NCBI GenBank assembly: GCA_003228735.1
Contig: QIFG01000077.1
Span: 1-38,866 of the forward strand
Direction of reading: 5' to 3'
DNA from: Zetaproteobacteria bacterium
GTDB taxonomy: Bacteria > Pseudomonadota > Zetaproteobacteria > Mariprofundales > Mariprofundaceae
Length of the DNA: 38,866 nt
Within the stretch, counting starts at the first letter, position 1. Each line of letters starts with the position of its first letter. Position numbers and translations under genes: made by a program. Shown piece by piece: positions 4,869 to 32,239 of this stretch. Below the pieces are notes generated by a model. The model saw nothing but the letters and a program-made list of their open reading frames with translations, had not been told where the DNA came from and ran no database searches.

Positions 4869-6151
4869 TGCGCATTGCCGTCATTGGCGGAGGGGTGGCG
4901 GGCCTGACATGCGCCATCCGGCTGGCGCAGAAAAATCAGGATATCGTACTGTTCGAGGCGGCTCCAGGACTGGGTGGCAGAACGCGCTCTTTTTTTGACG
5001 CTAAGGTAAATGGATGGGTAGATAACGGCCCGCACCTGCTGGCCGGAGCATACCAGTCCACCCTGAGATTACTGGAAGAGTGTGGTGCAGCAGACAACAT
5101 TCATTGGCAGGCTTCGCTTCGCCTGCCGCTCTGGAGGCCGGGGAATGGCATTCAACACATGGCTCCGCCTGCCACTCTGCCAATCGCCTGCGGACTACCG
5201 TGGGCATGCTACAGGCTTCCAGGACATGGTATGGACAGCCTGACCGGCATATTCCGCCTGTCTCTGGCAAGCCGAAAAGACATTGATTCGGAGCTAACAA
5301 CCCAAAGATGGCTGAATGACAACAAAATACCCGAATGCCTGCAAAAGGACTTGCTGGAGCCTTTATGCCTGGGCGCCATGAATGAGCCGCTTGAAACGGC
5401 CAGCGCAAAGAGCTTTGCCCGCGTGCTGCGCGAGAGTTTCGCCAGCCATAAGACTGCACGGCTTGGGTGGTTTAGGGTTCCGTTGTCCCAGGCTCTTGTG
5501 AAGCCGCTGGAAGAGAAGGCCGCAGACATGGGCGTGAAAATCCGTAAAAGCTGCCGCGTACTGCATTTGCTTGCAGCAGACAACGGCATTGCCATCGAAA
5601 CTGCCACAGGACCGGACAGGTTCGACCGGGCAGTCATCGCCTTGCCTGCAAGGGCCAGGAACGCTTTGCTCGGCAGGAAAGCACCAGTCGAGACAATGCC
5701 TATTACCAATGTCCATCTATGGTTTCGTGGGCTGCCTCCCTTGCCTGAACCGCTTATCGGCGGACTTGGCACGCATGCGCACTGGTTTTTTGACATGTCG
5801 CAACAACATGAGATTGGCGATAACGGGCAAGCGGGCCTGAGACATATCTGCGCCGTCATCAGTGCGGACGTATGCAAACTTCCGGCCGAACAGCGAATAC
5901 AGATTGTTTGCCGGGAATTATCCGACATGCTAGGCCTGAAAACTGAAATCAGACCCCAGCATCACCGGATCGTCTGCGAGCGGCACGCAACGATGCTGAC
6001 GCGACCAGCCAGTAATAAGAACGCGTTGCCGCCTTTCGTGATCGATGCTTCAGAACAGCCTGAACCGGGCAGCCTGCCTGCCACCATCGAGTTGGCCGTA
6101 CAACGAGGCGATCTGGCTGCTAATCAAGCAATAGAACCAATCCCGGCATAG
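4868..6151 (+). CDS. hpnE: hydroxysqualene dehydroxylase HpnE
   Basis: A 427-residue FAD-dependent amine oxidase/desaturase-like protein. Its dinucleotide motif is VIGGGVAGLTCAIRL at residues 5-19, followed by the second glycine-rich motif GLGGRTRSF. HpnE reduces hydroxysqualene to squalene in the last step of the HpnCDE route. The start codon overlaps the hpnD stop (TGATG), so the operon is coupled. The C-terminal FAD motif, usually AGDWT..GLPATIEGA, here reads IDASEQPEPGSLPATIELA. The LPATIE part is kept and the AGDWT part is lost. This is unusual and may affect cofactor binding or reflect local divergence. Operon position still makes the assignment firm. Confidence 0.85.
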   Translation: MRIAVIGGGVAGLTCAIRLAQKNQDIVLFEAAPGLGGRTRSFFDAKVNGWVDNGPHLLAGAYQSTLRLLEECGAADNIHWQASLRLPLWRPGNGIQHMAPPATLPIACGLPWACYRLPGHGMDSLTGIFRLSLASRKDIDSELTTQRWLNDNKIPECLQKDLLEPLCLGAMNEPLETASAKSFARVLRESFASHKTARLGWFRVPLSQALVKPLEEKAADMGVKIRKSCRVLHLLAADNGIAIETATGPDRFDRAVIALPARARNALLGRKAPVETMPITNVHLWFRGLPPLPEPLIGGLGTHAHWFFDMSQQHEIGDNGQAGLRHICAVISADVCKLPAEQRIQIVCRELSDMLGLKTEIRPQHHRIVCERHATMLTRPASNKNALPPFVIDASEQPEPGSLPATIELAVQRGDLAANQAIEPIPA

Positions 6152-6408
6152 GCTTATCCACCACCCTGAACGGGTATTTCGCCATTCCGGTCATTTACCG
6201 CCTAATCCTGGAATATACATGATGTGCTCGTTTTATTTACTTGAATCATAAAGACTTTTTCAAGTGATTACATTTTATGCAACCATAGCCATGTCCCATC
6301 AGGGAGCAAGACGGCTGATTTCACTTGAATTTTATCCACCAAGTTATCCACAGGCGTTGTGGGAGGATGGGATAAGCCCTTTATTCCGAGAGAGTTAGGT
6401 CAATTTCG
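6152..6408. promoter_or_regulatory. non-coding gap with DnaA-box-like sites and AT-rich core
   Basis: About 340 bp without a convincing gene lie between hpnE and the preferred coq7 start. The stretch has one perfect DnaA-box consensus, TTATCCACA (6344-6352). Two 8-of-9 matches, TTATCCACC, lie at 6154-6162 and 6332-6340. An AT-rich core (about 6229-6280) and inverted copies of TCAAGTGA/TCACTTGA (6260-6267 and 6321-6328) are also present. The coq7 promoter should lie here. DnaA binding is possible, but origin function is unproven. Confidence 0.5.
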
Positions 6409-6492
6409 ATGGAAAACAGGCAGTTGATGCAACCATCAAAATGCGTAGATTCCAAGACCGTGAAGACATCAAACTTCCGTAACTATTCCCTT

Positions 6493-19010: not shown

Positions 19011-19087
19011 TGGCGTCCCCAAGGGGATTCGAACCCCTGTTGCCGCCGTGAAAGGGCGGTGTCCTAGGCCGACTAGACGATGGGGAC
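19011..19087 (-). tRNA. tRNA-Glu (UUC)
   Basis: A complete cloverleaf reads on the minus strand from 19087 to 19011. It has acceptor GTCCCCA/TGGGGAC, anticodon loop CTTTCAC with TTC, T-loop TTCGAAT, discriminator G and encoded CCA. It lies downstream of the tRNA-Lys remnant on the same strand, so the two probably formed one transcript before prophage insertion. Confidence 0.97.
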
Positions 19088-19136
19088 GTAAAATGCGGCG
19101 CGCAGCTTAGCGTAAGCACCCACAGCATTCAAACAG

Positions 19137-19181
19137 TGGTGAGCCGGGCAGGTCTCGAACCTGCGACCCGCAGATTAAAAG
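19137..19181 (-). other. 3' fragment of tRNA-Lys (UUU), probable prophage attachment site
   Basis: On the minus strand this reads as the anticodon loop CTTTTAA, the 3' anticodon stem, a T-arm with TTCGAGA, the acceptor 3' strand CCGGCTC, discriminator A and CCA. The 5' half (acceptor GAGCCGG, D-arm, 5' anticodon stem) is absent, and unrelated sequence begins at 19182. This is the usual footprint of integration into a tRNA 3' end: a 45-bp core is left at one junction and the restored tRNA gene lies at the other, here outside the window. Confidence 0.85.
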
Positions 19182-19266: not shown

Positions 19267-19324
19267 GCCAACAAGGCGTATTTTCACTACGTCAGAGTTA
19301 CGCCATAGCTGTGGTGCCTCATGA
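19267..19324 (+). CDS. possible 18-residue leader peptide before the methyltransferase
   Basis: A short frame (MPTRRIFTTSELRHSC...) starts at an ATG with GGA about 9 nt upstream. It ends with a TGA overlapping the ATG of the cytosine methyltransferase (ATGA), which has no good ribosome binding site of its own. Translational coupling is plausible. The frame is also open upstream through the antisense of the tRNA fragment, which is not evidence of coding. Very uncertain. Confidence 0.25.
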
Positions 19325-20991
19325 GAAGAAAGCCTCCCCAGCGAATTAAACCCCACCAGGCAGAGATCGACTTCCGCGACGAGTTGATCGTGGATAACTT
19401 CGCCGGTGGCGGCGGAGCCAGCCTTGGCATCGAGTGGGCCTTCGGTCGGCCGGTCGATGTCGCCATCAATCACGATGCCGTAGCGATTGCGATGCACAAA
19501 GCCAATCATCCGGATACGGAGCATTATTGCGAGAACGTATGGGATGTAGATCCGCGCGAAGTCGCGCAGGGACGTCCTGTCGGCTTGGCGTGGTTTTCTC
19601 CCGACTGCAAACACTTCTCAAAGGCTAAGGGCGGCAAGCCCGTCGAAAAGAATATCCGAGGCCTGGCGTGGGTGGTGATTCGATGGGCTGCTGCCGTTCG
19701 TCCGCGCGTGATCATGCTGGAGAATGTCGAGGAGTTTCAGGCCTGGGGGCCGCTGACGAAAGACAACATGCCCTGCCCGATGCGCAAGGGACACACCTTC
19801 CGCCGCTGGAAGCAGCGCCTGGAGGCGCTGGGCTACCAGATAGAACACCGTGAACTGAGAGCCTGCGACTATGGAGCCCCGACGATACGAAAGCGGTTGT
19901 TTGTAGTGGCCAGGTGCGACGGTAAGCCAATCGTGTGGCCTGAGCCGACACATGGCCCGAACCTGCTGCCATACAGGACTGCGGCAGAGTGTATCGACTT
20001 CTCCATCCCCTGCCCCTCTATCTTCGAGCGCAAGCGGCCACTGGCCGAGAATACGATGAAGCGTATATACCGAGGTATCCAGCGCTTTGTTATCGATGCC
20101 GAGGAGCCCTTCATCGTTACGTGTAACCATGGCGGCGATTGGTTCCGTGGCCAGAGCGTCAACGAGCCTATGAAGACCATCACGGCAGCCCGGGATGCTC
20201 ACGGCTTGGTGGTGCCTTATCTCACCGAGCATGCCAACGGATCGAAGCAGAGGATATTCGCTGTAGATGAGCCACTGCGCACGCAATGCGCGGAGGTAAA
20301 GGGTGGTCATTTCGCCGCGGTGGAGCCAATCCTAGAGCATGTTGAATTTTCATGTAACTGTGGCCACGTTACTGATAAGGCTGCTGCATCATTTATCATC
20401 AAGCGCTTTGGCGGCGCGGTTGGTGCGGATGCCCGTGTGACAGCCCATCTCACACGCCCATTCGGGCAAAGCGTGGGACAGAAGCCGGATGAACCGGCGC
20501 CGACAGTGATGCCTGGTGGCCTTGGCAAGACCCAGCTTTGTACGTCGCATCTGATCAAGCTCAAGGGCACATGCCGGCATGGCCGGCCAGTCCAGGCTCC
20601 GATGCCTACGGTTCAGGCCGGCGGGCTGCATATCGGCGAGGTGCGGGCCTTCCTGGTGAAGTATTACGGCACTGCCGTCGGGCAGAACCTGAAGGATCCG
20701 CTGCATACGGTCACGGCCAAACATCGCATGGGGCTTGTAACGGTTGCAGGCGAGGAGTACCAGATCGCAGATATCGGCATGCGCATGCTGTCGCCGCGTG
20801 AGTTGTTCCGGGCGCAAGGCTTTCCTGACGACTACATCATCGACCTGGAGCACAACGGCCGACCGCTGACGAAGACGGCGCAGGTTCGGCTGTGTGGTAA
20901 TTCAGTATGCCCGCACGTAGCTCGGGCTCTACTCGAAGCGAATCTGGAAGCATCCAATGCTGAAAACGGCACCAGGAGAGCGTCCGCATGA
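19321..20991 (+). CDS. phage DNA (cytosine-5) methyltransferase
   Basis: A 556-residue C5-methyltransferase. Motif I is NFAGGGGASLGIEWAF (from residue 26), the catalytic motif IV is WFSPDCKHFSKAKGG (C96), ENVEEF (from 138) is motif VI and IRKRLFVVAR is motif VIII. LSPRELFRAQGFPDDY and KTAQVRLCGNSVCPHVARAL near the end are motifs IX-X. The long target-recognition region contains several (D/E)P-x-x-T units, such as EPMKTITA, EPLRTQCA, EPAPTVMP, APMPTVQA and DPLHTVTA. No restriction enzyme is adjacent, so it is an orphan enzyme that probably shields phage DNA from host restriction. Its sequence specificity is unknown. Confidence 0.9.
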   Translation: MRRKPPQRIKPHQAEIDFRDELIVDNFAGGGGASLGIEWAFGRPVDVAINHDAVAIAMHKANHPDTEHYCENVWDVDPREVAQGRPVGLAWFSPDCKHFSKAKGGKPVEKNIRGLAWVVIRWAAAVRPRVIMLENVEEFQAWGPLTKDNMPCPMRKGHTFRRWKQRLEALGYQIEHRELRACDYGAPTIRKRLFVVARCDGKPIVWPEPTHGPNLLPYRTAAECIDFSIPCPSIFERKRPLAENTMKRIYRGIQRFVIDAEEPFIVTCNHGGDWFRGQSVNEPMKTITAARDAHGLVVPYLTEHANGSKQRIFAVDEPLRTQCAEVKGGHFAAVEPILEHVEFSCNCGHVTDKAAASFIIKRFGGAVGADARVTAHLTRPFGQSVGQKPDEPAPTVMPGGLGKTQLCTSHLIKLKGTCRHGRPVQAPMPTVQAGGLHIGEVRAFLVKYYGTAVGQNLKDPLHTVTAKHRMGLVTVAGEEYQIADIGMRMLSPRELFRAQGFPDDYIIDLEHNGRPLTKTAQVRLCGNSVCPHVARALLEANLEASNAENGTRRASA

Positions 20992-22297: not shown

Positions 22298-22638
22298 ATC
22301 CGCCCAGTTTCTTTCTTCGGCCATTGCCTGAAACGGTAATGATGTTCTGTTGTTTTGGCATTAAAGCCCTGGTGATGGCAAGGGGTATAAAGGGTAAAGT
22401 GGCATCATGTCATGCTCTCTTCGAGCAAAGGGCAACCATCACCAGAAAAGGAACCGGAAATACGGAAATCAACACAGCCGCAAGCCCTTATCTCCCAACG
22501 CATTGCGCCGGACATACTCCAACCACCATGCCCCCCCCATCGAAATCTCAATCTTGGATGCCTGCCCGCCTACACTATGTACCTCTCAAAAATTGGGGAT
22601 TTCCCACCATCCCGAGCCTTTTGGAGCCTGCGTCATGA
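22294..22638 (+). CDS. uncertain small frame between the loader and the recombinase
   Basis: About 340 bases separate the loader stop from the preferred recombinase start. The best candidate begins at the ATG at 22294, overlapping the loader stop, with AGGAG 8-10 nt upstream. It gives about 114 residues (MNPPSFFLRPLPETVMM...). Codon use becomes less convincing after about residue 35, and two other frames are also open. It may be a true short phage gene that is degenerate at its 3' end, or non-coding. No function can be suggested. Confidence 0.3.
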   Translation: MNPPSFFLRPLPETVMMFCCFGIKALVMARGIKGKVASCHALFEQRATITRKGTGNTEINTAASPYLPTHCAGHTPTTMPPPSKSQSWMPARLHYVPLKNWGFPTIPSLLEPAS

Positions 22639-23588
22639 CCGCCGCCTTCAGGTGGTCGCCTGCCCTTGCGCAGGAGTTCCACAATCACCACGTCATAAGC
22701 ATTGGTGGCTCTGCTTCCGCTGCTGAGAAATACTGCTTGACTGCGAAGCACTTTTTTAACTGGGTAGCGGCCGAAGACGTGCCGCTGACGAGCGACACAG
22801 TCAACGCCTGGATGCGCCACCTCTACCTGAACCGCAACAACCGCTCAAACGCCACCCGGGCCAGCCGCCTTTCCGGCCTGCGCACAGTCTGCCGCTGGCT
22901 CGTTTCGCGTGGCCTGTTAGCAGAAGACCCGACCGCCGGCGTCCCGACGCCGAAATTCTCCGCAAGCTCGGCGCAGAAGTTCAGCACCATGGAACTCGCC
23001 GCACTATTCAAGGCCCCGGACGTGCAAAAGCTCATCGGCATCCGCGATCGAGCCATTCTCATGCTGTTTTATGCCACCGGCATGCGCCGTCAGGAGATGG
23101 GCAGGCTGACGATGGACAGGCTAAAGCTGGGCCCTGTCTCCGGCCGTGTGCATATCCTCGGCAAGGGCGCCAAGCATCGCGTCGTTTCCTTTGAGGGCCC
23201 GGTGATCGACGCTTTGCAGAAGTGGATCGTAGTCCGCTCCGGCATTGCCGCTCCGGACGAGCACGCAGTTTTCGTGGCGATTTACAGTCACCAGGCGGGC
23301 AGCTCCGGTCTTGCGCTGGGAAATAGCGGCCTCGGCTTTGTCATCAAGCGCGCCGCGCACGTCGCAGGCCTGCGCCGCATTGATGTGTTTCTGCACAAGC
23401 TCCGCAGCACCTTCGCCACAGATCTGTACGACGCAGGCAAGCCTGTCGGCGAGATACGCATTCTGATGGGCCACGGCTCGGAAATCACAACCTGGCGATA
23501 TATCGCCATCAGCGAGCGCCACCTACGCACAGCAAGGCTGCCGAATGAGCGCTGGCGCGAAATCGAAGAAGCAGGAGCCGATCTGTGA
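22635..23588 (+). CDS. tyrosine recombinase, probable phage integrase
   Basis: A 317-residue tyrosine recombinase. The N-terminal SAM-like core-binding domain spans about residues 10-100. The catalytic domain shows R151 (ATGMRRQEM), Lys in ILGKGAKHR (about 177-180), H254 and R257 (HKLRSTF), H280 (LMGHGS) and the nucleophile Y289 (TWRYI). The frame is open 76 codons upstream. The ATG at 22635, with GGAG about 9 nt before it, fits the family start. It is the only integrase-like gene seen and is probably responsible for insertion into tRNA-Lys. It sits 3.5 kb from the attachment site and is coupled (GTGA) to the next gene. Confidence 0.88.
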   Translation: MTAAFRWSPALAQEFHNHHVISIGGSASAAEKYCLTAKHFFNWVAAEDVPLTSDTVNAWMRHLYLNRNNRSNATRASRLSGLRTVCRWLVSRGLLAEDPTAGVPTPKFSASSAQKFSTMELAALFKAPDVQKLIGIRDRAILMLFYATGMRRQEMGRLTMDRLKLGPVSGRVHILGKGAKHRVVSFEGPVIDALQKWIVVRSGIAAPDEHAVFVAIYSHQAGSSGLALGNSGLGFVIKRAAHVAGLRRIDVFLHKLRSTFATDLYDAGKPVGEIRILMGHGSEITTWRYIAISERHLRTARLPNERWREIEEAGADL

Positions 23589-24418
23589 TCCGCATCCTGT
23601 CCCTCGGTGCTGGCGTGCAGTCCACCACAGCCCTCCTCATGTCGTGCAAGGGTGAGTTGCAAAAACTGGACTGTGCGATTTTCGCAGATGTGGGATGGGA
23701 GCCAAAGGCGGTCTATGACAATCTCGACTGGCTTAAAGGTGAATCCGAGCGGCACGGTATCCCAGTCCACATTGTCGGGAGTGGTCGCAACATAAGGGAC
23801 GATGCCGCCATCGGCATGGTGAGGGGCCGCGCCGAAGGCGGTGAGCGTTGGACAACAATGCCCTACTTCACGAAGGACGTGAAAGGCTCTGTCGGCATGC
23901 TCCGCCGCCAATGCACAAAAGAGTTCAAGATCGTCCCGATTGAGAAGTTTGTGCGCAGTGAGCTTATGGGCCTGAAGCCCCGCCAGCGCGCACCGAAAGA
24001 CCCGGTGATTGAGCAGTGGTTCGGAATCTCTTTTGATGAAGCTCAACGAATGCGCTCAAGCGACAAGGTATGGAAGACGCACAGATACCCGCTCATTTAT
24101 GACGTGCCGATGGACAGGGATGCGTGCCACGTATGGCTGAAGGCAAACTATCCAGAGCGCGATGTCCCGCGATCAAGCTGCATCGGCTGCCCTTTTCACT
24201 CTGACTATGAGTGGCGGCAACTGCGCGACACCTCGCCCGCAGAGTTTCAAGACGCCGTTGAACTCGACAATGCAATCCGGGAAAGCGGCGGTATCCGTGG
24301 AAAGGTGTACATCCACCGCAAGGCAATCCCACTTCAGGACGTTGACCTGGATACGATGGAAGACAAGGGCCAGATCAATATGTTCGGCAACGAATGCGAA
24401 GGATTGTGTGGGGTATGA
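23585..24418 (+). CDS. phage PAPS-reductase-like / DndC-related PP-loop protein
   Basis: A 277-residue adenine-nucleotide alpha-hydrolase-fold protein with the PP-loop SLGAGVQSTTALL (residues 6-18) and FADVGWEPKAVYDNL. Cysteines C110, C199, C202 (CIGCPFHSDYEWRQL), C271 and C275 could hold an iron-sulphur cluster or zinc. In the wider family, PAPS reductases reduce sulphate and DndC inserts sulphur into DNA. Phage copies mostly have unknown function. A GTG start overlaps the recombinase stop and the end overlaps a Mor-like gene, so it is embedded in the operon. Role in DNA or nucleotide modification is inference. Confidence 0.75.
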   Translation: MIRILSLGAGVQSTTALLMSCKGELQKLDCAIFADVGWEPKAVYDNLDWLKGESERHGIPVHIVGSGRNIRDDAAIGMVRGRAEGGERWTTMPYFTKDVKGSVGMLRRQCTKEFKIVPIEKFVRSELMGLKPRQRAPKDPVIEQWFGISFDEAQRMRSSDKVWKTHRYPLIYDVPMDRDACHVWLKANYPERDVPRSSCIGCPFHSDYEWRQLRDTSPAEFQDAVELDNAIRESGGIRGKVYIHRKAIPLQDVDLDTMEDKGQINMFGNECEGLCGV

Positions 24419-24714
24419 ACCAGCAATGGGTGTCAGACATGAACGAAATCCTTTCCAGGCTGGAATCCGACGACCCGCTGGTTTCACTGGGCCGCAAGAT
24501 AGGGGCAGAAAAGCTCTACACCGTGCTGGACGAGCTTGGCGGGCCAATCGGCATGACGCTCTACATGCCCTGTGCGGCCAACTACTTCAGCAAGCTCGTA
24601 ACCAAAGCCCGAGAGCAGGAAATCCGAAACAGGTACAACGGCGACAACAAATCGCAGCTGTGCATCGAGTACCAGATGAAGCCAAGTAGATTGCAGAAGG
24701 TGTTGATCGGATGA
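24415..24714 (+). CDS. Mor-like transcription activator
   Basis: A 99-residue protein. The C-terminal stretch REQEIRNRYNGDNKSQLCIEYQ has the spacing of Mor/C-type helix-turn-helix domains, which in phage Mu switch on middle and late genes. The N-terminal half (LGRKIGAEKLYTVLDELGG) resembles the Mor dimerisation region. I chose the ATG at 24415, which overlaps the previous stop, over an upstream ATG in the same frame. It precedes the terminase and head genes, fitting an activator of late transcription. Moderate certainty. Confidence 0.65.
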   Translation: MNQQWVSDMNEILSRLESDDPLVSLGRKIGAEKLYTVLDELGGPIGMTLYMPCAANYFSKLVTKAREQEIRNRYNGDNKSQLCIEYQMKPSRLQKVLIG

Positions 24715-25412
24715 GCAGGAAAAAGCCAAGGGGCCGGCCACCAGGCAAGAAGCTGTCTCCGGCTGAGCTGGCTCAGCGGAAGGCCGCGGCCGAGAAATCC
24801 ACTGGCCCAAAAACAGCGGAAGGTAAGGCGGCATCAAGCATGAACGCATGGAAATCAGGCCGGTATGCCGAAACGATTCTGCGCGGGCCGGCCATGCAAC
24901 CGTGCAAGTCCACCTGTCCGAAGTATCCGTGCCAGCACATTGACGAGGGCAACGCCAAGCCCGGCCAGCGCTGTCTGGACACCTCGGCTCTGATTCAGGC
25001 GTATGACGCAATTATCGGCGCTATGACCAGCGGCGAGATGACAGGCATGGTCGAAGTCGCCGCAGCTAATCTCGCGGCAAACCTCACCGTCATTCAGCGG
25101 CTTCGAGAGGAAATCCACGAATCCGGCCCGATGGTCACACGCATGCTTTATGGCAAGTCCGGCGAGCTAATTGGCGAGGAGAAAGTGCTGCATCCAGGCG
25201 TGCTGGCGCTTCCGAAGCTATGCCAGCAGCTCGGCATTGATCTGCCTCAGTTCCTGGCCACGCCCGCCGCGAGGGCAGGCCTGAAGCTGAAAGAGGAGGA
25301 GTTCGAGACAGCCGCAGAGATTGCCGCCCGCCTGATCGACCGTTTCGGCCCATCCGGTCCCGCCGCAAGCAAGAGGAACGCAATCGACGTCGAGGTGGTG
25401 AAAGATGACTGA
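24711..25412 (+). CDS. probable small terminase subunit-like phage protein
   Basis: A 233-residue protein with a basic N-terminus (RKKPRGRPPGKKLSPAE). A Gly/Lys-rich segment follows (STGPKTAEGKAASSMNAWKSGRYAE), then a cysteine cluster (CKSTCPKYPCQH...RCLD) and a helical C-terminal half (VLALPKLCQQLGIDLPQFL). Such architecture is common in DNA-binding small terminase-like phage proteins, but no diagnostic motif is seen. It lies 5 kb before the large terminase, with modification genes between, an unusual separation. The name is tentative. Confidence 0.5.
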   Translation: MSRKKPRGRPPGKKLSPAELAQRKAAAEKSTGPKTAEGKAASSMNAWKSGRYAETILRGPAMQPCKSTCPKYPCQHIDEGNAKPGQRCLDTSALIQAYDAIIGAMTSGEMTGMVEVAAANLAANLTVIQRLREEIHESGPMVTRMLYGKSGELIGEEKVLHPGVLALPKLCQQLGIDLPQFLATPAARAGLKLKEEEFETAAEIAARLIDRFGPSGPAASKRNAIDVEVVKDD

Positions 25413-26289
25413 CCGGCCCCAGCGGGCATTGCTGATGAAGGGCAACAAAATCACGCGGCCAGTCATGCGATATCATGGCGCGAAATATCGGCTTGCTCCG
25501 TGGATCATGTCCTTTTTCCCACCACACAAATGCTATGTGGAACCGTTCGGCGGTGGTGGCAGCGTTCTCATGCAAAAGACCCGTGCTTATGCGGAGGTTT
25601 ACAACGACCTGGACGGCGAGATTGTTAATGTGTTTCGCGTACTGCAGGACGGAAAAATGAGCGCCAGATTGCGCGAGGTTTTGCTCGCCACTCCATATGC
25701 CCGTGAAGAGTTTGAAACCGCATGGGATGTGTCCGAGTGTCCTGTTGAGATGGCCAGGCGAACATTGATCCGGGCTTTTATGGGCTTTGGGTCTGCCGGC
25801 GCCACAAAAGGATCGACCGGATTCAGGATTGACTCAATGCGGGCGTATAAATTGGCGGCTCACCTGTGGGCTGAGCACCCCATACACATCCAAACGTTCA
25901 CCTGCCGCCTTGCTGGAGTGATAATTGAGCACCGTCCAGCCATCAGTGTGATCATGCAGCATGATGCAGCTGACACGCTGATTTATGCAGACCCCCCATA
26001 CGTTCACGAATCTCGATATAACACAGGAGGAAAGGCCAGAAAATGCTACCGGCATGAGATGTCAGATGATCAGCACCGTGAATTGATCGAAGTATTAAGA
26101 AACTGCCAGGGAAGTGTTGTCTTGTCCGGTTATCCCTCAGACCTTTATTCCGAGATGCTGTCAGATTGGACATGCCACCAAACAAAAGCACGAATATCTG
26201 CAAACACTGGGACGAGTGTCCGTATCGAGTGTGTTTGGCTGAATCCGCGATGTAAAGACATGCAGGGCCAGCAAAGGATGTTTGCGTGA
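25405..26289 (+). CDS. D12-class DNA N6-adenine methyltransferase
   Basis: A 294-residue Dam-like enzyme with the SAM-binding motif VEPFGGGGSVL (residues 45-55) and the catalytic DPPY (196-199, in IYADPPYVHESRY). The N-terminal RYHGAKYRLAPWIMSFFP is typical of the class. It methylates adenine N6 in double-stranded DNA; the target is unknown. It overlaps the preceding gene by 8 bases and has no nuclease partner, so an anti-restriction or packaging-signal role is likely. It is the second DNA methyltransferase of this prophage. Confidence 0.9.
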   Translation: MTDRPQRALLMKGNKITRPVMRYHGAKYRLAPWIMSFFPPHKCYVEPFGGGGSVLMQKTRAYAEVYNDLDGEIVNVFRVLQDGKMSARLREVLLATPYAREEFETAWDVSECPVEMARRTLIRAFMGFGSAGATKGSTGFRIDSMRAYKLAAHLWAEHPIHIQTFTCRLAGVIIEHRPAISVIMQHDAADTLIYADPPYVHESRYNTGGKARKCYRHEMSDDQHRELIEVLRNCQGSVVLSGYPSDLYSEMLSDWTCHQTKARISANTGTSVRIECVWLNPRCKDMQGQQRMFA

Positions 26290-26774
26290 GCATGTTCGGG
26301 GATCAGTACGAAGGGGCGACGTTTTCGCCATGCCGGCGGTATCGCTATCTGCTGTGGCGGATATGGCAGCCGGAGAAGTCGGTCTGCCTGTTCATCATGC
26401 TGAACCCGTCCACGGCGGACGAGTCTGCCAACGATCCGACTGTGGCCAAGTGCATCCGCTATGCCCAGCGATGGGGCTGTGGCGGCATTCAGGTCTGCAA
26501 TCTGTTCGCCTTCCGCGCCACTTTAGAGCCCGCCGTCATGAAAGCCTCGGCCAACCCTGTCGGCCCGGACAATGATCGCTTTATCCTGGATGCAGCGCAG
26601 AAGGCCGGAATTATCGTCTGCGCCTGGGGCAATCACGGCGACCACATGAAGCTGCAATTCCACGGGTTTGATCCACTTTGCCTGCGCGTTACCAAGCCCG
26701 GAGAGCCTGAGCATCCGCTCTACCTCAAGGGCGATCTTCAAACGATTCCGTATGTCAGGGAGCCCACAGCATGA
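26286..26774 (+). CDS. DUF1643-family protein
   Basis: A 162-residue protein with family hallmarks: YRYLLWRIW near the start, LFIMLNPSTADESANDPTVAKCIRYAQRWG, VCNLFAFRAT, and the C-terminal VCAWGNHG. The family has no established biochemical function and is frequent in phages and mobile elements. A GTG start overlaps the methyltransferase stop (GTGA), placing it in the same coupled series. A role connected to DNA modification is only suggested by neighbours. Confidence 0.8.
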   Translation: MSMFGDQYEGATFSPCRRYRYLLWRIWQPEKSVCLFIMLNPSTADESANDPTVAKCIRYAQRWGCGGIQVCNLFAFRATLEPAVMKASANPVGPDNDRFILDAAQKAGIIVCAWGNHGDHMKLQFHGFDPLCLRVTKPGEPEHPLYLKGDLQTIPYVREPTA

Positions 26775-27031
26775 CTGCCGCTGTTTTAAGCCTCGTCAAT
26801 AATTTGAACTGCGCCCACAACAAGTTGCAAGTTGACCAGAAACTCGGATATGTGAAATGCGGCCTCTGCGGAGAGCAATTAAATCCCATTTGGGCACTTG
26901 CCCAGTTCTGCAAAAAAGAGGCGAGGGCAAATAGAGAGGTTGAACGATTGCTCGCCCTGGCAGAAAAAGCAGAAAAGAAAAACAGATGCAAGTGTCAGCA
27001 TTGCGGAAAAATGACAAGGATTCAGAGGTGA
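26771..27031 (+). CDS. small zinc-ribbon-like phage protein
   Basis: An 86-residue protein coupled (ATGA) to the DUF1643 gene. Two cysteine pairs, VKCGLCGEQ (residues 29-34) and KCQHCGK (near 75), flank a helical Lys/Glu-rich middle. This layout could form one zinc ribbon. No named family is recognised. Zinc binding is inferred from the cysteines. Confidence 0.65.
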   Translation: MTAAVLSLVNNLNCAHNKLQVDQKLGYVKCGLCGEQLNPIWALAQFCKKEARANREVERLLALAEKAEKKNRCKCQHCGKMTRIQR

Positions 27032-27060
27032 AAATGACACACCGAACCCAAATCACAAAA

Positions 27061-27127
27061 GCGTCCGAAGTGGGCGATGGCCGCTCCCAGCGGCACAGCG
27101 GCGGTTCGACACCGCCCGGACGCTCCA
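27061..27127 (+). tRNA. tRNA-Gly (CCC)-like sequence lacking a normal D-arm
   Basis: A 7-bp acceptor pairs perfectly (GCGTCCG 27061-27067 with CGGACGC 27117-27123). It is followed by T and CCA, where U73 is typical for glycine. The T-arm is perfect (GGCGG-TTCGACA-CCGCC). A 7-nt loop CTCCCAG gives anticodon CCC on a 4-bp stem. Only 11 nt lie between acceptor and anticodon stem, too few for a normal D-arm. An alternative 4-bp D-stem can form only by dissolving the anticodon stem. It may be a minimal tRNA, a tRNA mimic or a remnant. Confidence 0.5.
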
Positions 27128-27143
27128 ACAACAAAAATACTCT

Positions 27144-27164
27144 GTGCCTCCGTGCCTCTGTGGT
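27144..27164 (+). repeat. 21-bp interspersed repeat, copy 1
   Basis: The unit, GTGCCTCCGTGCCTCTGTGG plus one T, is identical to 30358-30378. It ends 9 bases before the next gene start. Similar GTGCCTC/CTGTGG strings are a known kind of widespread intergenic repeat in environmental bacteria. It replaces what would be the usual tight gene overlap in this prophage. Confidence 0.8.
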
Positions 27165-27172
27165 GAAAAACA

Positions 27173-27601
27173 ATGAATGATGATCGCTGGAACGAACTGC
27201 TGGCCGAACTGAAGAAAGCCGCCATGATTCAGGACGTTCTGCCGATCGTCTCGGATCCAGCCGCTCAGAAGCTGCTGCTGGCCTGGCCCCGTACCTGCCT
27301 GCGATACGAAGAACCGCCAGGCGCTCCGCCGGAAGATGAAAACGGACAGTGGCGCTGGCTGTGGCTTGGCGTGGCCTGGGACGAAAACGAACTGGCCGCC
27401 ATCTCCGCCCTGCAGCCCTTCGTCCTGCGCATCAAGCTGGATCAGATGAAAGGAAACCGGCTGATATTCCCCGATGGCTCAGTCTCGCAATATGCCGAAC
27501 GGTATCTGAAGGCCACCGCCGCCACTGCCATCAATGAAGCGATTGCCGCGCAGACCGCCTCACTGAAGCGCCCCGGTGGTGACTCAAAGGACACGGTCTA
27601 G
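27173..27601 (+). CDS. phage protein of unknown function
   Basis: A 142-residue acidic protein (MNDDRWNELLAELKKAAMIQDVL...) with RWLWLGVAWDENELAAISAL and ISP-like RLIFPDGSVSQYAERYL. It has no recognised domain, signal peptide or membrane segment. The start lies just after a 21-bp repeat and a short GGTG, so its ribosome binding site is weak. It is 3 bases upstream of the Mom-like gene and may act with it. Confidence 0.7.
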   Translation: MNDDRWNELLAELKKAAMIQDVLPIVSDPAAQKLLLAWPRTCLRYEEPPGAPPEDENGQWRWLWLGVAWDENELAAISALQPFVLRIKLDQMKGNRLIFPDGSVSQYAERYLKATAATAINEAIAAQTASLKRPGGDSKDTV

Positions 27602-27604
27602 CCC

Positions 27605-28912
27605 ATGTTCATCGGCTCAATCCCCGCCAAGCTCAGGCAGGTATTCTGGCAGGCTGCCACGCTGCTGGAAGGCCGCGATGTGTATATCGGCTGCTCGGGC
27701 AACTTCACCTTCGAGCAGATAATCTCCCGCCGCTGCCAGAATGCCAGGCTGCACAGCAACGATATCGCGCTCTACACGTCTATGATCGGCTACGCCCTCA
27801 CCGACCGAAAGGCGGATATCGTCATTCAGGACCCGGAGTACACCTGGCTGGGCGAATATCTGAACCGCGACGGCGCCTGCCAGATCGCCTCGTTCCTGCT
27901 ATTTCAGGAAATGCTGAAGTTCGAGAAGCAGAACACCGACTACAAGGTGCGCATGTGGAATCACTACGTGACCAACTGGGAGCGCCTGCTATCCTTGTCG
28001 ATGTACCGCGTCAACAAGGGCCTGGCCGCAACCAGAATCGAGGATTACACGACTGTCGATGTGTTCGATTATTTCCCTCGCCCTGGCGGTGTCTGCATCG
28101 GCTTCCTGCCAACCTATGTCGGCGGCTACGAGCGCCTGTATAAGCGCATTGCCGAGGTGCTGCTGTGGGTGAATGAGCCGCCTTATGCCATGCTCACAGA
28201 CGAACGCCGCGAGGAAACGATCGAGCGCATGAAGCAGTCGGACTTCATCCTGTACGACGACAACCCGCGTGATGACGTGCCATGCATCGCCCGCCTGAAT
28301 CAGCCCGGCAAGCATGATGTCTACATCTACAGCAACATGGCATTCCCGCACGTGCTGCTGCGCAAGAATATGGAGGAGACCGCGCCGAAGTATCACATCC
28401 TCGGCCTGGACGCCGAGATTCCGGACGATGCCCCGATCCGCATCGTGGAGACGGACAACAAGGTGCTGAATCACTACCGATCCATGTACCTGAAAAAAGG
28501 CATCACGCCGGCCAGCGCGGGCCTGGTCTACATGGTCTTCGCCGGAGAGCAGTTGCTCGGCTTTGCAGCATTCCAGCCATACTCCCCGATGGGCAAAGCC
28601 GGCTGCATTTACATGATGTCCGATTTTGTGGTGCGCAGCCGCAGGCACAAGCGCCTGGCCAAACTCATGCTGATGATCACGATATCCGCCGAAATGCAGC
28701 TCGCCCTGCAGGAAAAGCAGATCACCCGCTATACGCACATTTACACAACAGCCTTCACAAAAAATCCGGTCAGCATGAAATACCGAGGGATATTCAAGCT
28801 GGCCAAACGCGGCGATGGCTTTCTGAACTACTCCGGCGAGTTCGCCGGAGATTCCACAAAGGACGTGGTGAAACGATGGAAGATGAGATTCGAGAAACAA
28901 TCGAAAAGCTGA
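27605..28912 (+). CDS. Mom-like GNAT protein fused to a methyltransferase-like N-terminal domain
   Basis: A 435-residue phage protein in two parts. The N-terminal half (DVYIGCSGNFTFEQII near residues 25-40, then LHSNDIALYTSMIGYALTD) recalls the SAM-binding start of D12 adenine methyltransferases but lacks DPPY. The C-terminal part (about 285-415) has GNAT-like segments: YMVFAGEQLLGFAAFQPYSP, YMMSDFVVRSRRHKRLAKLMLMI and THIYTTAFTKNPVSMKYR. This resembles phage Mu Mom, a GNAT-fold enzyme that modifies adenine against restriction. A ParB-like gene overlaps its end. DNA modification is a reasonable inference; the reaction is not established. Confidence 0.6.
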   Translation: MFIGSIPAKLRQVFWQAATLLEGRDVYIGCSGNFTFEQIISRRCQNARLHSNDIALYTSMIGYALTDRKADIVIQDPEYTWLGEYLNRDGACQIASFLLFQEMLKFEKQNTDYKVRMWNHYVTNWERLLSLSMYRVNKGLAATRIEDYTTVDVFDYFPRPGGVCIGFLPTYVGGYERLYKRIAEVLLWVNEPPYAMLTDERREETIERMKQSDFILYDDNPRDDVPCIARLNQPGKHDVYIYSNMAFPHVLLRKNMEETAPKYHILGLDAEIPDDAPIRIVETDNKVLNHYRSMYLKKGITPASAGLVYMVFAGEQLLGFAAFQPYSPMGKAGCIYMMSDFVVRSRRHKRLAKLMLMITISAEMQLALQEKQITRYTHIYTTAFTKNPVSMKYRGIFKLAKRGDGFLNYSGEFAGDSTKDVVKRWKMRFEKQSKS

Positions 28913-29631
28913 ACCAGTCACTGGGAGATGCATTCCCGTGGACGCTGGACGTGGTGGATCCGCGCGAGCTGAAGCTGCTGGAAAAGAATGCGCGCTATAT
29001 GCTGAGCGAGACATTCAACACCCTGGTCGGAAACGTCAAAGGCGATGGCAATCTGCATTCCGTGCCGTTGTGCCACCGCCAGGCGGACGGCTCGCTGCTG
29101 GTCCTGTCCGGCAATCATCGGGTGCAGGCGGCAGCGCAGGCCGGCATCGAGCATATACTAATCCTGGTCATTGATCGGGAATTGTCCCGAGATGAGGCGA
29201 TTGCCATCCAGCTGTCGCACAACGCCATCGATGGCAAGGACGATCAGGTGTTGCTGGCCGAATTGTGGGCCGAGATCGGAAGCGTGGACATGAAGCTCTA
29301 CGCCGGACTGGACGATGAAACGATCAAGAAGCTGGAAACCATGGAGTTCGACACCATCGCCGAGGCCAGCGTGGACTACAAAATGATGACCTTCCTGTTC
29401 CTGCCCGAGGAGGTGGACAGGCTGAAGGCAGCTGCGGAGGAAATCGACCGCGTGACGGCGCAATCAGATGGCACCTATCTGCTCAGCCGGGAGCACTACG
29501 CCAAGGTGTTCGATGCCATCGTCAACACAAAGGAACAGTACAGCATCGTCAACACGCCGACCGCGCTGATGAAAATGGTCGAGATCGTGGAAGAACGCCT
29601 GGCGGCAGATGCCGCCGCCGCAAGTGATTGA
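28876..29631 (+). CDS. ParB/Srx-fold phage protein
   Basis: A 251-residue protein with a ParB N-terminal-type domain: PRELKLLEKNARYM, GNLHSVPLCHRQADGSLLVLSGNHRVQAAAQAG (GNHR at residues 79-82) and IAIQLSHNAIDGKDDQ. ParB-fold proteins bind CTP or nucleotides, and some act as nucleases or modification partners. The gene begins inside the end of the Mom-like gene (37-base overlap), a strong sign that the two proteins work together. The C-terminal half is helical and unassigned. Chromosome-partition function is unlikely, since no ParA is near. Confidence 0.75.
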   Translation: MEDEIRETIEKLNQSLGDAFPWTLDVVDPRELKLLEKNARYMLSETFNTLVGNVKGDGNLHSVPLCHRQADGSLLVLSGNHRVQAAAQAGIEHILILVIDRELSRDEAIAIQLSHNAIDGKDDQVLLAELWAEIGSVDMKLYAGLDDETIKKLETMEFDTIAEASVDYKMMTFLFLPEEVDRLKAAAEEIDRVTAQSDGTYLLSREHYAKVFDAIVNTKEQYSIVNTPTALMKMVEIVEERLAADAAAASD

Positions 29632-29653
29632 TATTGTTGGCGAATACCTTGCC

Positions 29654-29672
29654 ACACTTACGCAATAAGTGT
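29654..29672. promoter_or_regulatory. short hairpin before a small phage gene
   Basis: ACACTTA and TAAGTGT form a perfect 7-bp stem with loop CGCAA, about 30 bases before the ATG at 29703. No T-run follows it. An operator or RNA element is possible. Confidence 0.4.
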
Positions 29673-29702
29673 AAGCTCAAATTAAGGAAAGGGAGTAATC
29701 GC

Positions 29703-29954
29703 ATGACACAAATGGAACATAACTTGTCGAAGCTGCCGGATATCTGCTACAGCCGACTGCCAAGCACGGGCCAGTCGATACTTCTGAAAAAGGGCGAAGC
29801 CGGCTATTGGCCAACAGAGTTTCCGGTCAATGTGGAAGAAAGAAACGCCCTGATTGGCGTCAGCAAGGAGCAGGCAGAAGCCATGTTTGCCGGGTCAATG
29901 TTCTGCTGGGGCAGCAAAGGCGCAGACCCGGACACCTACATAGGGAGAGTGTAA
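29703..29954 (+). CDS. small phage protein of unknown function
   Basis: An 83-residue protein starting at the ATG at 29703, which has a strong AAGGGAG site 6-10 nt upstream. The same frame is open from 29628 but lacks this signal. It reads MTQMEHNLSKLPDICYSRLPSTGQSILLKKGEAGYWPTEFP with later NALIGVSKEQAEAMFAGSMFCWG. No family is recognised. It directly precedes the DUF488 gene and is probably cotranscribed. Confidence 0.6.
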   Translation: MTQMEHNLSKLPDICYSRLPSTGQSILLKKGEAGYWPTEFPVNVEERNALIGVSKEQAEAMFAGSMFCWGSKGADPDTYIGRV

Positions 29955-30338
29955 ATGATCTATTCCATCGGATACCAGCGCCTGAGCCTGGACGCCCTCA
30001 AGGGCATAATGCGTAAGCACCGCATCGACAGGCTGGTGGACATCCGCAGCAAGCCGTATTCACGCCGCGCCGAGTTCAACAAGCGCAATCTGATGCGCTT
30101 GTTTGGCAACTATGTGTGGCGTGGCGATGTCCTGGGGGGCCTGCATGGCCCGGTCTCCCTGCTGGGCATCGACTGGATTCTCAAGCGCCAGGCCGAAGGC
30201 TTGAATCTTCTGATCATGTGCATGGAGCACAACCCGGACGACTGCCATCGCAAGTACGACATTGCCAAGCGCCTGGAGCCGCATGGCATCAAGGTGCAGC
30301 ATATCATCCTGGGCAACAACCATCCGAAGTTGTTCTGA
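29955..30338 (+). CDS. DUF488-family protein
   Basis: A 127-residue protein with the family pattern IYSIGYQRLSLDALKGIM at the start, LVDIRSKPYSRRAEFNK in the middle and LLIMCMEHNPDDCHRKYDIAKRL near the end, where the Cys-containing CMEH and CHR are characteristic. The family is linked by many genomes to DNA-processing or modification loci, but no reaction is proven. The ATG is separated from the previous stop by no more than a base. It ends before a repeat copy and the large terminase. Confidence 0.8.
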   Translation: MIYSIGYQRLSLDALKGIMRKHRIDRLVDIRSKPYSRRAEFNKRNLMRLFGNYVWRGDVLGGLHGPVSLLGIDWILKRQAEGLNLLIMCMEHNPDDCHRKYDIAKRLEPHGIKVQHIILGNNHPKLF

Positions 30339-30357: not shown

Positions 30358-30378
30358 GTGCCTCCGTGCCTCTGTGGT
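30358..30378 (+). repeat. 21-bp interspersed repeat, copy 2
   Basis: Identical to 27144-27164 (GTGCCTCCGTGCCTCTGTGG plus T). It overlaps the GTG start assigned to the large terminase. This casts doubt on that start and favours the GTG six codons later. Confidence 0.8.
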
Positions 30379-32239
30379 AAGCCTCTTTCCAGTGTCTGAC
30401 ATCCGCATCCCGGAGCCGATACTGCTTGCCGAGCTGGCGAAGCGCAGTTGGAGCTTCGAGCAGATGCTGAACGGCGGCTGCTCGGATAATTACGGCCAGC
30501 CGGTCACGCTGGATGATTTTCAGCTTTACCTGATCACGCAATACCCGAGCCTGTTTGCCACTGCATTCATGCATGAGCCGGACACCGGCGGCCCGTGGAA
30601 GATGTCGGAGGAATGGCAGTATCAGGCGGAATCTGCCGACTACCTCCTCGGCGACGTGGTGCACGAGGACGCGGCCGAGGTCGGCAAGACCCGTGAGATC
30701 ACCGTACTGTTGCTGTGGAGTTCATTTACGAATCACGGCGGGCGCTTGCGCAAGCCTGTCAGCCTGGTAGGCGCGCCGCTCTCCTCGCACCTCGGCGAAA
30801 TATCCCGCGCTATCGAGGAGCAGGTCGAACTTAATCCAGATCTGAAGGCCATCACCCGGCTGAAGAAAGGCAAGCGCTGGAAGCGCTACGAAGAAAACCA
30901 CCTGCTGATGGAGTTCAATACCGGCGCCTGGATATTCTTTCGCCCGTCCGGATCGGACGGCAACGCCTTCCGTGGCATTCACGCCAACGCCTTCGTCAAG
31001 ATGGATGAAGCCACCAAGCTCAAGAATCCCATGATATGGTCGGAGTTCTGGCGCGCCATGAAGCCGACCGCCACTTCCCGCATCTATTCGGTGCCGGATG
31101 GCGACCGCAGCTGCGACTTCTACAGCCAGTGCCAGCAGGCCATGCCGTTCGAGGAATTCAAGCGGCGGCATCCGGACGGATACACAGGCAAGGGAAAACC
31201 GCCAACGATCAAGTTCAACTGGCCGAAATCGCTGATGCCCGATCCGTTCTGGAATGAAGCCCGCCGCCGGTATTTCATCGGCAAATATCATGGCGAGGAT
31301 TCAAGCGGATATGTGCGGAATTGTCTCGGCGGTTGGGGCGATCCGGAAAGCACGGCCTTCCCGTGGTCAACCTTCGGGCCGTGCCTGACCGATATCCCTG
31401 AATATCGCAGGCTCAAAGTGATGGTGGACGCAAAGAGCGGCGAGGTGTCTCTGGAGTTGACCCGCTTCGAGGCTATCCGGGTCGGCAACAAGCTGACCGG
31501 AAATGAAGTCCTGCTGTGGGATCGACGCGAGCCTCTGAGTGAATGGGCGGATGAAGCTGACCGGCGGACGGCCATCGAGAACATCGTCTTTTCCGCTTTT
31601 GCCGATATGCCGAAGGGTGACAACTGGTGCGGCGCAGACCTTGGCCAGACCCGCGACCCGACCGAAATCATGGTCAAGCTGGAGCGCGGCAACCTGTGGC
31701 GGCTGCATACCCGCATCAACCTGCGCGGCGTCGAATATCAGCACCAGGCCGAGTTCATCCGTGCCGTGGATATGCTGGCCGATCCTGATGCCGAACGCCC
31801 CGCATGGGGCATTGATCCAGGCAGTGCAGGCACCACGGTCATCGGCATCCTGTCCGAGGACAGATTCGCGGATCGTGACCTTGCCCAGCGCGCCACCGGC
31901 TATGCTTTCGGCGGCGGCTATGACGCCGTGGATCTGGCCGGCGAGGTGATCATGACCAAGAATGAAAAGAAGGATGAAGTGCCGCTGCGCCAGAACGGCA
32001 AGGAGCTTTCCACAGACCTGCTAACCATGGCCATGCAGGCCAGGCGTGCCCAGTATTCGCTGGATCCGGAGCTTTCCCTCTACTACCCCAGCCATACCTA
32101 CAAACAGGGCTCACGTTGGCGTATATTCGCCACGGTGGACGATCATACAATCGATGCCGACCGCCAGCTGATGCTGAATCGCGTCCTTGCCGGAGATGGT
32201 GGCGGTGATTCATTCGCCTGCGGCGCACATGAGCGCTAG
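30374..32239 (+). CDS. phage terminase large subunit
   Basis: A 621-residue packaging motor. A variant Walker A is seen as EDAAEVGKT (about residues 98-106), a Walker B-like VKMDEA follows in the ATPase half, and the nuclease half has WCGADLGQTRDPTE and AWGIDPGSAGTTVIGIL with late Asp in GGGDSF. The usual start could be this GTG at 30374 or the GTG at 30392. The first six residues come from a repeat and are dubious. It cuts and translocates concatemeric DNA into proheads. The next gene is the portal, a standard order. Confidence 0.85.
   Translation: MVSLFPVSDIRIPEPILLAELAKRSWSFEQMLNGGCSDNYGQPVTLDDFQLYLITQYPSLFATAFMHEPDTGGPWKMSEEWQYQAESADYLLGDVVHEDAAEVGKTREITVLLLWSSFTNHGGRLRKPVSLVGAPLSSHLGEISRAIEEQVELNPDLKAITRLKKGKRWKRYEENHLLMEFNTGAWIFFRPSGSDGNAFRGIHANAFVKMDEATKLKNPMIWSEFWRAMKPTATSRIYSVPDGDRSCDFYSQCQQAMPFEEFKRRHPDGYTGKGKPPTIKFNWPKSLMPDPFWNEARRRYFIGKYHGEDSSGYVRNCLGGWGDPESTAFPWSTFGPCLTDIPEYRRLKVMVDAKSGEVSLELTRFEAIRVGNKLTGNEVLLWDRREPLSEWADEADRRTAIENIVFSAFADMPKGDNWCGADLGQTRDPTEIMVKLERGNLWRLHTRINLRGVEYQHQAEFIRAVDMLADPDAERPAWGIDPGSAGTTVIGILSEDRFADRDLAQRATGYAFGGGYDAVDLAGEVIMTKNEKKDEVPLRQNGKELSTDLLTMAMQARRAQYSLDPELSLYYPSHTYKQGSRWRIFATVDDHTIDADRQLMLNRVLAGDGGGDSFACGAHER

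Follow-up and report, generated by a model that had tools for sequence, protein, structure and literature searches.

A degenerate tRNA-Gly-like gene accompanies a DAM-like/GNAT fusion and a ParB-fold protein in a candidate phage DNA-modification cassette

We conclude that positions 27061 to 30338 of the window (the whole 38,866-nucleotide stretch of prophage-bearing DNA analyzed here) probably form a phage cassette in which a dedicated glycine tRNA serves DNA modification. As to chemistry, we lean slightly toward a reaction in which glycine carried on a non-decoding tRNA-Gly is moved to DNA adenine by a GNAT enzyme, either Mom or a fusion of DAM-like and GNAT domains. The conserved unit is smaller than the seven-gene set that an earlier note proposed for this region, and it includes an RNA that the note missed. 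The genes of the region are as follows.

19321-20991, C5-cytosine methylase gene (family search)
22407-23588, integrase
23585-24418, PAPS-reductase-like gene (family searches, phrog_424 match)
24711-25412, gene whose only match is phrog_26872, a family of unknown function
25405-26289, D12 methylase (PF02086 match, DPPY intact)
26286-26774, DUF1643 gene (family search)
26771-27031, zinc-ribbon gene (phrog_4865 match)
27061-27127, plus strand, tRNA-Gly-like gene (covariance models R1 and R2)
27173-27601, plus strand, small protein gene flanked by the tRNA-like and fusion genes
27605-28912, plus strand, DAM-like/GNAT fusion gene (PF22555 and PF22559)
28876-29631, plus strand, ParB-fold gene (phrog_7405)
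29955-30338, plus strand, DUF488 gene (PF04343, E = 1e-9)
30374-32239, weak match to a large terminase

All open reading frames of the earlier note are present at the coordinates it gave, and its orphan cytosine methyltransferase at 19.3 kb is the C5-cytosine methylase. Its statement that the set splits the terminase genes was not confirmed, the candidates being the phrog_26872 gene and the weak large-terminase match. The note also treated the region as one hypermodification pathway, in which the PAPS reductase, D12 enzyme, DUF1643 protein, zinc-ribbon protein, and Dcm would act with the GNAT/ParB pair. These genes do cluster within 7 kb in the prophage, but they are rarely found with the pair elsewhere. 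Among 83 diverse representatives of the fusion, from phages of several bacterial phyla, we found ParB near the fusion in 83, DUF488 in 70, Dcm in 6, DUF1643 in 4, D12 in 2, and PAPS reductase and zinc ribbon in 1 each (counts for the last five genes come from single-sequence searches and are lower bounds). The scattering in relatives that the note had named as evidence against its idea thus applies to the wide set and not to the GNAT/ParB pair. PAPS reductase, D12, DUF1643, and zinc ribbon are no conserved partners of the pair, and we dropped the wide cassette as very improbable, since its remaining genes accompany the pair in only 1 to 6 of 83 relatives. DUF488, mentioned by the note only in passing, is a true and frequent third protein partner: it is absent from the neighborhoods of 80 random viral loci and 80 Mom loci, and the protein carries the motif C..E..H/D...CHR. 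The 27173-27601 protein had no match in Pfam, PHROG, or NCBIfam, and its homologues occur in 9 of the 83 representatives, making it a peripheral member in some relatives.

The fusion protein consists of a DAM-like domain (residues 2 to 262; PF22555, E = 9e-56) and a phage GNAT domain (residues 277 to 428; PF22559, E = 5e-39), both above the curated cut-off (189.5 and 134.1 bits versus 27). Its match to phrog_7858 (PF22555 DAM-like-phage1 plus PF22559 GNAT-phage-like) is full-length across both domains. A sequence search of the PDB gave no match; Foldseek with the AlphaFold model (pLDDT 93.6) returned methyltransferases and Mu Mom (8bv8). Methylase motif IV, [DN]PP[YFW] (DPPY), is kept in none of the 83 family members, unlike in the neighboring D12 enzyme. 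Judged by this loss, the DAM-like domain appears to be a dead adenine-methylase-like domain. A motif-I-like CSGNF and the acidic residue D53 are invariant in the family, so the domain may still bind SAM. The Pfam entries describe the domains only and give no function, ParB partner, or tRNA; we propose that the fusion is a putative glycyl transferase acting on DNA.

The ParB-fold gene lies directly downstream of the fusion in 81 of the 83 representatives, and the 37-nucleotide overlap of the two genes is conserved. Its protein has a ParB/Srx fold with nucleotide-binding box II and a conserved LSGNHR motif, and its best structural matches are CTP/CDP-bound ParB (E = 8e-6). The PF02195 match fell below the cut-off, and no partition operon was found nearby. 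This near-universal adjacency across many phyla, together with a parallel Mom/ParB arrangement, strongly supports the suggestion of the earlier note that the GNAT fusion and ParB act jointly, probably in DNA modification.

The tRNA-Gly-like gene escapes ARAGORN and Rfam searches. It was matched by model R1, from whose training it was left out (47.6 bits, E = 1.8e-9), and by model R2, whose training set was confined to elements next to Mom genes of other phages (64.1 bits, E about 1e-12), for which it is the only match in the host genome. It has a closed acceptor stem (27061-27067 with 27117-27123; pairs G1:C72, C2:G71, and G3:C70), an anticodon arm at 27080-27094 with loop CTCCCAG and an NCC anticodon (CCC, 27086-27088), a T arm at 27100-27116, U73 at 27124, and an encoded CCA end at 27125-27127. 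Bacterial glycyl-tRNA synthetase identity consists of G1:C72, C2:G71, U73, C35, and C36; all of these are present in the element and in all three host tRNA-Gly genes, which are normal and read CCC, UCC, and GCC. The element keeps U33, and its D region is reduced to 12 nucleotides (27068-27079), so it lacks the normal D arm of a translational tRNA-Gly. We rejected the idea that the element is a phage attachment site derived by copying a host tRNA. Apart from acceptor-end and T-loop letters that tRNA-Gly genes share, it does not match the three host genes; it lies far from the integrase and instead matches Mom-linked elements, with 81% identity to one of them. Its blastn matches to cultured phages were at chance level only, as expected for a diverged RNA of 70 nucleotides.

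Similar elements occur near 45 of the 83 fusion loci. At the other 38, none was detected nearby, and there the RNA would have to be replaceable by host tRNA-Gly or located elsewhere. The 44 model hits close to the cassette without exception read NCC (Gly), versus 3 of 16 distant hits (Fisher p = 1e-10), and 80 random viral loci contained no tRNA-Gly. The 44 cassette-linked elements all start with GCG, and 43 have U73; U33 is missing from 18, A34 is found in 14, and in some the D arm is reduced to a mini arm. The elements thus keep glycyl-tRNA synthetase identity features and often lose decoding features. Both the association of the RNA with the cassette and its degeneration are shown by these counts. 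The position of the element varies (upstream, downstream, and even on the opposite strand). Cassettes are also present in cultured phages of laboratory hosts, namely Megabear and Jeon of Mycobacterium smegmatis, Clawz and Sting of Gordonia, Martha of Arthrobacter, and Appa of Microbacterium, and in four complete cultured-phage genomes the element is the only R1 match and is located by the modification gene.

Phage Mu Mom produces N6-carbamoylmethyl (glycinamide) adenine, which carries a glycine-derived group. The "Mom-like" label that the earlier note gave the fusion holds at the level of fold (Foldseek to 8bv8_B, E = 8.4e-4, target TM-score 0.47) and not at the level of Pfam family: the Mom profile PF25680 missed the fusion, which hits PF22555 and PF22559 only, and recovered the positive control, Martha Mom, with 207 bits. 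Profile-profile comparison ties the GNAT domain to Mom only weakly (probability 54%), so the argument rests on fold and shared context instead. This context includes true Mom genes (PF25680) that occur with ParB and have the same RNA type alongside. In this ParB-linked Mom subfamily, a tRNA-Gly-like element lies beside almost all of 80 loci examined; among the Mom loci first examined, Mu and 6 of 8 others had none. Stem covariation in the Mom-linked elements reached 52 compensated cells versus 11.6 in shuffles, with no selection for the T stem in the element. In most ParB-linked Mom loci, it shares sequence with the mom reading frame, and part of its conservation could therefore be coding. Of 39 viral contigs retrieved with a 19-mer of the Mom-linked element, 38 were Mom loci, which is not an independent test because the 19-mer also codes for the Mom C terminus. 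The fusion differs from Mu Mom in its DAM-like domain, downstream ParB, and, usually, DUF488, and no tRNA element accompanies Mu mom within the stretch examined.

We infer tRNA charging, glycine transfer, DNA as the target, adenine as the base, and protection as parts of one mechanism. Host glycyl-tRNA synthetase would charge the phage RNA through its retained acceptor-stem and anticodon features. Because features needed by the ribosome are lost in many relatives, the charged RNA would be reserved for the phage enzyme. The dead methylase-like domain would bind DNA and present a base, most likely adenine, to which the Mom-fold GNAT domain would move the glycyl group. The resulting N6-glycyl-adenine could rearrange internally to N6-carbamoylmethyl-adenine, as in Mu. 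The ParB-fold protein may be an obligatory NTP-binding partner for DNA loading or an activation step, with DUF488 as an accessory, and the product would shield phage DNA from restriction. Dedicated degenerate tRNA-Gly isoacceptors are a feature of the FemABX system of S. aureus. For the non-ribosomal use of glycyl-tRNA as a glycine donor, the FemABX peptidyl transferases are a precedent (PMC2045680), although there the acceptor is peptidoglycan rather than DNA and the tRNA is host encoded.

The fusion and ParB might instead modify DNA with acyl-CoA or a SAM derivative as donor, the tRNA-Gly being an ordinary phage tRNA that serves to boost translation or makes up for host tRNA cut by defense nucleases. 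Phages often carry tRNAs, replacement of defense-damaged tRNAs is a published idea (PMC13313380), and the 38 loci without a detected element fit this reading. We consider it unlikely, given that the cassette-adjacent elements are Gly only, that the same RNA type stands beside two different GNAT families, that the host has CCC, UCC, and GCC tRNA-Gly of its own, and that many elements are unfit for decoding, with U33 or a normal D arm missing or an ACC anticodon.

The Gly-only association would also be expected if the GNAT targeted glycyl-tRNA itself, blocking translation or superinfection, with the phage tRNA as decoy or antidote. GNAT toxins of the TacT/AtaT type do act on aminoacyl-tRNA, including glycyl-tRNA. 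However, these toxins use acetyl-CoA to acetylate the amino group of the aminoacyl-tRNA and belong to toxin-antitoxin modules with no DNA-methylase-like domain or ParB, whereas the GNAT here is fused to such a domain and paired with ParB. The equivalent enzyme of the parallel system is a true member of the DNA-modifying Mom family (PF25680), and translation-unfit elements could not rescue translation. We met no TacT-type RHH/HTH antitoxin next to the cassette, where the conserved neighbors are ParB, DUF488, and packaging genes, and we regard this explanation as quite improbable. An equally small chance attaches to a DAM-like domain that still works with a modified SAM, as the invariant CSGNF and D53 would allow, beside a regulatory RNA, such as a processing signal tuning mom/GNAT mRNA. 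In its favor, the RNA reaches into the mom 3' end at most ParB-linked Mom loci, where RNase P/E processing would cleave the message, but DPPY is missing in 83 of 83 members, the position of the element varies, and a regulatory element would have no need of G1:C72, C2:G71, U73, and C35/C36.

Within the open-access literature searched, we found nothing connecting glycyl-tRNA with DNA modification, and we know of no other system in which an aminoacyl-tRNA is the donor for modifying DNA. If the preferred glycyl-transfer reading is true, aminoacyl-tRNA would be such a donor. It would name a definite, testable candidate for the long-unknown source of the glycine-derived group of Mu Mom and would account for a set of odd phage tRNA-Gly genes that standard tRNA finders do not see. 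Even if the donor idea is wrong, the constant linkage of a degenerate tRNA-Gly to two different GNAT families and a ParB partner calls for an explanation.

All of the genes grouped into a wide DNA-modification set by an earlier note are present in the prophage region. From the PAPS-reductase-like gene (phrog_424) onward, the order is a Mor-like activator, phrog_26872, a D12 methylase, DUF1643, a zinc ribbon, an unknown 142-aa protein, a protein fusing a DAM-like domain (PF22555) to a GNAT domain (PF22559), a ParB-fold protein (phrog_7405), phrog_10280, DUF488, a large terminase (weak match), and a portal protein. The small-terminase label for 24711-25412 is unsupported, as the family match there is phrog_26872.

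23585-24418, PAPS-reductase-like protein
26771-27031, zinc-ribbon protein
27061-27127 (+), tRNA-Gly-like element
27605-28912 (+), DAM-like/GNAT fusion
28876-29631 (+), ParB-fold protein
29955-30338, DUF488 protein

PADLOC assigned no defence system to the fusion or to the ParB-fold protein. In PADLOC, the PAPS-reductase-like protein additionally matches SspD (E 3e-10), a phosphorothioation-system protein. At 19011-19167, a host tRNA-Glu lies just beyond the phage genes, adjoined on the minus strand by a T-arm-like fragment (19148-19167) that is possibly an attachment-site remnant.

We identified full-length fusion homologues (27-28% identity) in 13 cultured actinophage records, as well as homologues on 173 viral contigs, from which 79 loci were retained, and on 31 bacterial contigs from Desulfobacterota-type MAGs, Firmicutes, Actinomycetota, Bacteroidota, Chloroflexota, Planctomycetota, and Paceibacterota. 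The family is scarce near home, the window's own genome being the sole carrier among 61 related genomes. The fusion and ParB proteins encoded on one viral contig (L003 5308-7334, IMG metagenome 3300003885) share 100% identity with their window counterparts. Dereplication at 85% identity left 83 full-length representatives, every one with a ParB partner, directly downstream in 81. The reverse search from ParB yielded 80 loci with the fusion upstream in 76, and three of the other four start at a contig edge. DUF488 homologues occur near the fusion in 70/83 representatives, often within less than 300 bp, and in none of 80 random viral or 80 Mom loci; the small and large terminase genes for packaging often come immediately after the cassette. 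PAPS reductase, zinc ribbon, D12, DUF1643, and Dcm were each found near the fusion in just 1 to 6 of the 83, counts that are lower bounds from single-sequence searches, and the wide interpretation is therefore largely wrong. The zinc-ribbon gene of the window sits upstream of the tRNA-like gene, much as zinc-finger Com lies upstream of mom in Mu, and since it is kept with the cassette in only 1/83, this likeness is probably due to chance.

Running ARAGORN on the fusion loci revealed that a tRNA-Gly gene immediately precedes the fusion in many unrelated phages. The window element fills the gap between the zinc-ribbon and 142-aa genes and reads GCGTCCG AAGTGGGCGATG GCCG CTCCCAG CGGC ACAGC GGCGG TTCGACA CCGCC CGGACGC T CCA; neither ARAGORN nor Rfam detected it. 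A covariance model trained on 21 elements from other loci, with the window excluded (R1), gave it 47.6 bits, more than the 42.3 given to the genuine host tRNA-Glu. Across the 83 representatives, R1 gave 44 matches near the cassette, about twenty of which are training members that match by construction while the rest, including the window, were uninvolved in the model. All 44 carry a glycine anticodon (NCC), versus 3/16 distant matches (Fisher p 1e-10), the remainder of which read Met, Asn, Glu, and others. Counting L112 and L024, found by the Mom-derived model described below and by pattern, 45/83 fusion loci have a nearby element. As a control, 80 random viral loci totalling 757 kb gave five R1 matches at E <= 0.05; ARAGORN called eight tRNAs in these loci, none of them tRNA-Gly. 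The control is rough, because its loci were drawn with one 15-mer and average shorter than those with the cassette. Across the complete Clawz, Megabear, Appa, and Martha genomes, R1 matches nothing but the element. Locus L117 has tandem tRNA-Gly genes (6331-6404 and 6409-6482) reading CCC and ACC. At L016, ARAGORN called tRNA-Ser(act) at 5672-5768, whereas R1 finds a Gly-like element at 5700-5768; degenerate elements can thus be misnamed by tRNA finders.

A parallel arrangement surrounds true Mom genes. Searches with Mu Mom brought up Microbacterium phage Appa, in which ParB and Mom are followed by a tRNA-Gly on the opposite strand, and Arthrobacter phage Martha, with the order ParB, a small ORF, Mom. 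The Martha protein is a true Pfam Mom member (207 bits), and R1 detected an unannotated element there at the mom end (59 bits). In this subfamily ParB lies just upstream in 73/80 loci, and a tRNA-Gly-like element overlaps or adjoins mom in nearly all 80, or 75/80 by a simple pattern that also scores 108 elements elsewhere in these loci (822 kb of strands searched). R1 and a model trained on 16 Mom-linked elements only (R2) together found >70 element places in Mom loci. At L180 (3469-4728), L183 (693-2114), and L188-L267, hidden elements overlap or abut the stop codon of true Mom genes, and ARAGORN misses most of them. Two identical-scoring copies occur at L216 (19-92, 2175-2248) and at L247 (1312-1381, 2023-2092). 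Scoring 64.1 bits, the window element was the top R2 match across 1.33 Mb of fusion loci, and its 1.88-Mb genome holds no other match. It is at best 81% identical to the Mom-linked elements. A single RNA type is thus found with two different types of GNAT DNA-modification enzyme, each with its own ParB. The examined stretch of Mu itself has no such element.

Foldseek matches the N-terminal part of the fusion's AlphaFold model (pLDDT 93.6) to methyltransferases and the C-terminal part to GNATs, Mu Mom (8bv8) among them; the partner has a ParB fold nearest to CTP/CDP-bound ParB. The DAM-like domain lacks the catalytic motif [DN]PP[YFW] in 83/83 members, with C30, D53, D152, and P169 invariant, which makes methylation unlikely; it may have kept an ability to bind DNA or a ligand. 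Invariant GNAT residues are D340, K353, L354, T381, S390, K392, Y393, R394, and W425. Sequence-level similarity to Mom is weak and the Pfam Mom model does not match the fusion, so we do not class it in that family; it may work like Mom.

Bacterial glycyl-tRNA synthetase reads the initial GCG positions, U73, C35, and C36. All 44 near-cassette elements start with GCG and 43 have U73, and the three host tRNA-Gly genes share the synthetase-read positions with them. Features of an ordinary tRNA are often lost: 18/44 lack U33, 14/44 have A34 (anticodon ACC, unusual in bacteria), several have atypical T loops, and the D arm in some is a mini version with a 3-nt loop while others, including the window element, have almost no D arm. 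The host already encodes CCC, UCC, and GCC tRNA-Gly. Compensatory changes back the stems, of which the D stem of the fusion-linked alignment (A5) and the T stem of the Mom-linked one (A11) are free of pattern selection, the search pattern having partly selected the acceptor and anticodon stems, plus the T stem for A5. The phage RNA retains what the synthetase requires and sheds what the ribosome requires, the same pattern as staphylococcal cell-wall tRNA-Gly.

The simplest reading of the cassette is that glycyl-tRNA serves as donor. Mu Mom puts a glycine-derived group on adenine, and GNAT-fold enzymes using aminoacyl-tRNA exist. FemABX enzymes use glycyl-tRNA (PMC2045680). Glycine might be transferred to N6; if the two nitrogens at C6 then traded places within the molecule, the product would be precisely the carbamoylmethyl adenine found in Mu. 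We found no link between glycyl-tRNA and DNA modification in open-access papers. The observation in the earlier note is partly right. Its narrower GNAT/ParB idea holds up, and it leads to something more interesting than the wide set: the genes are associated with a tRNA-Gly-like RNA, and we consider it somewhat probable that together they function as a tRNA-linked DNA-modification cassette.
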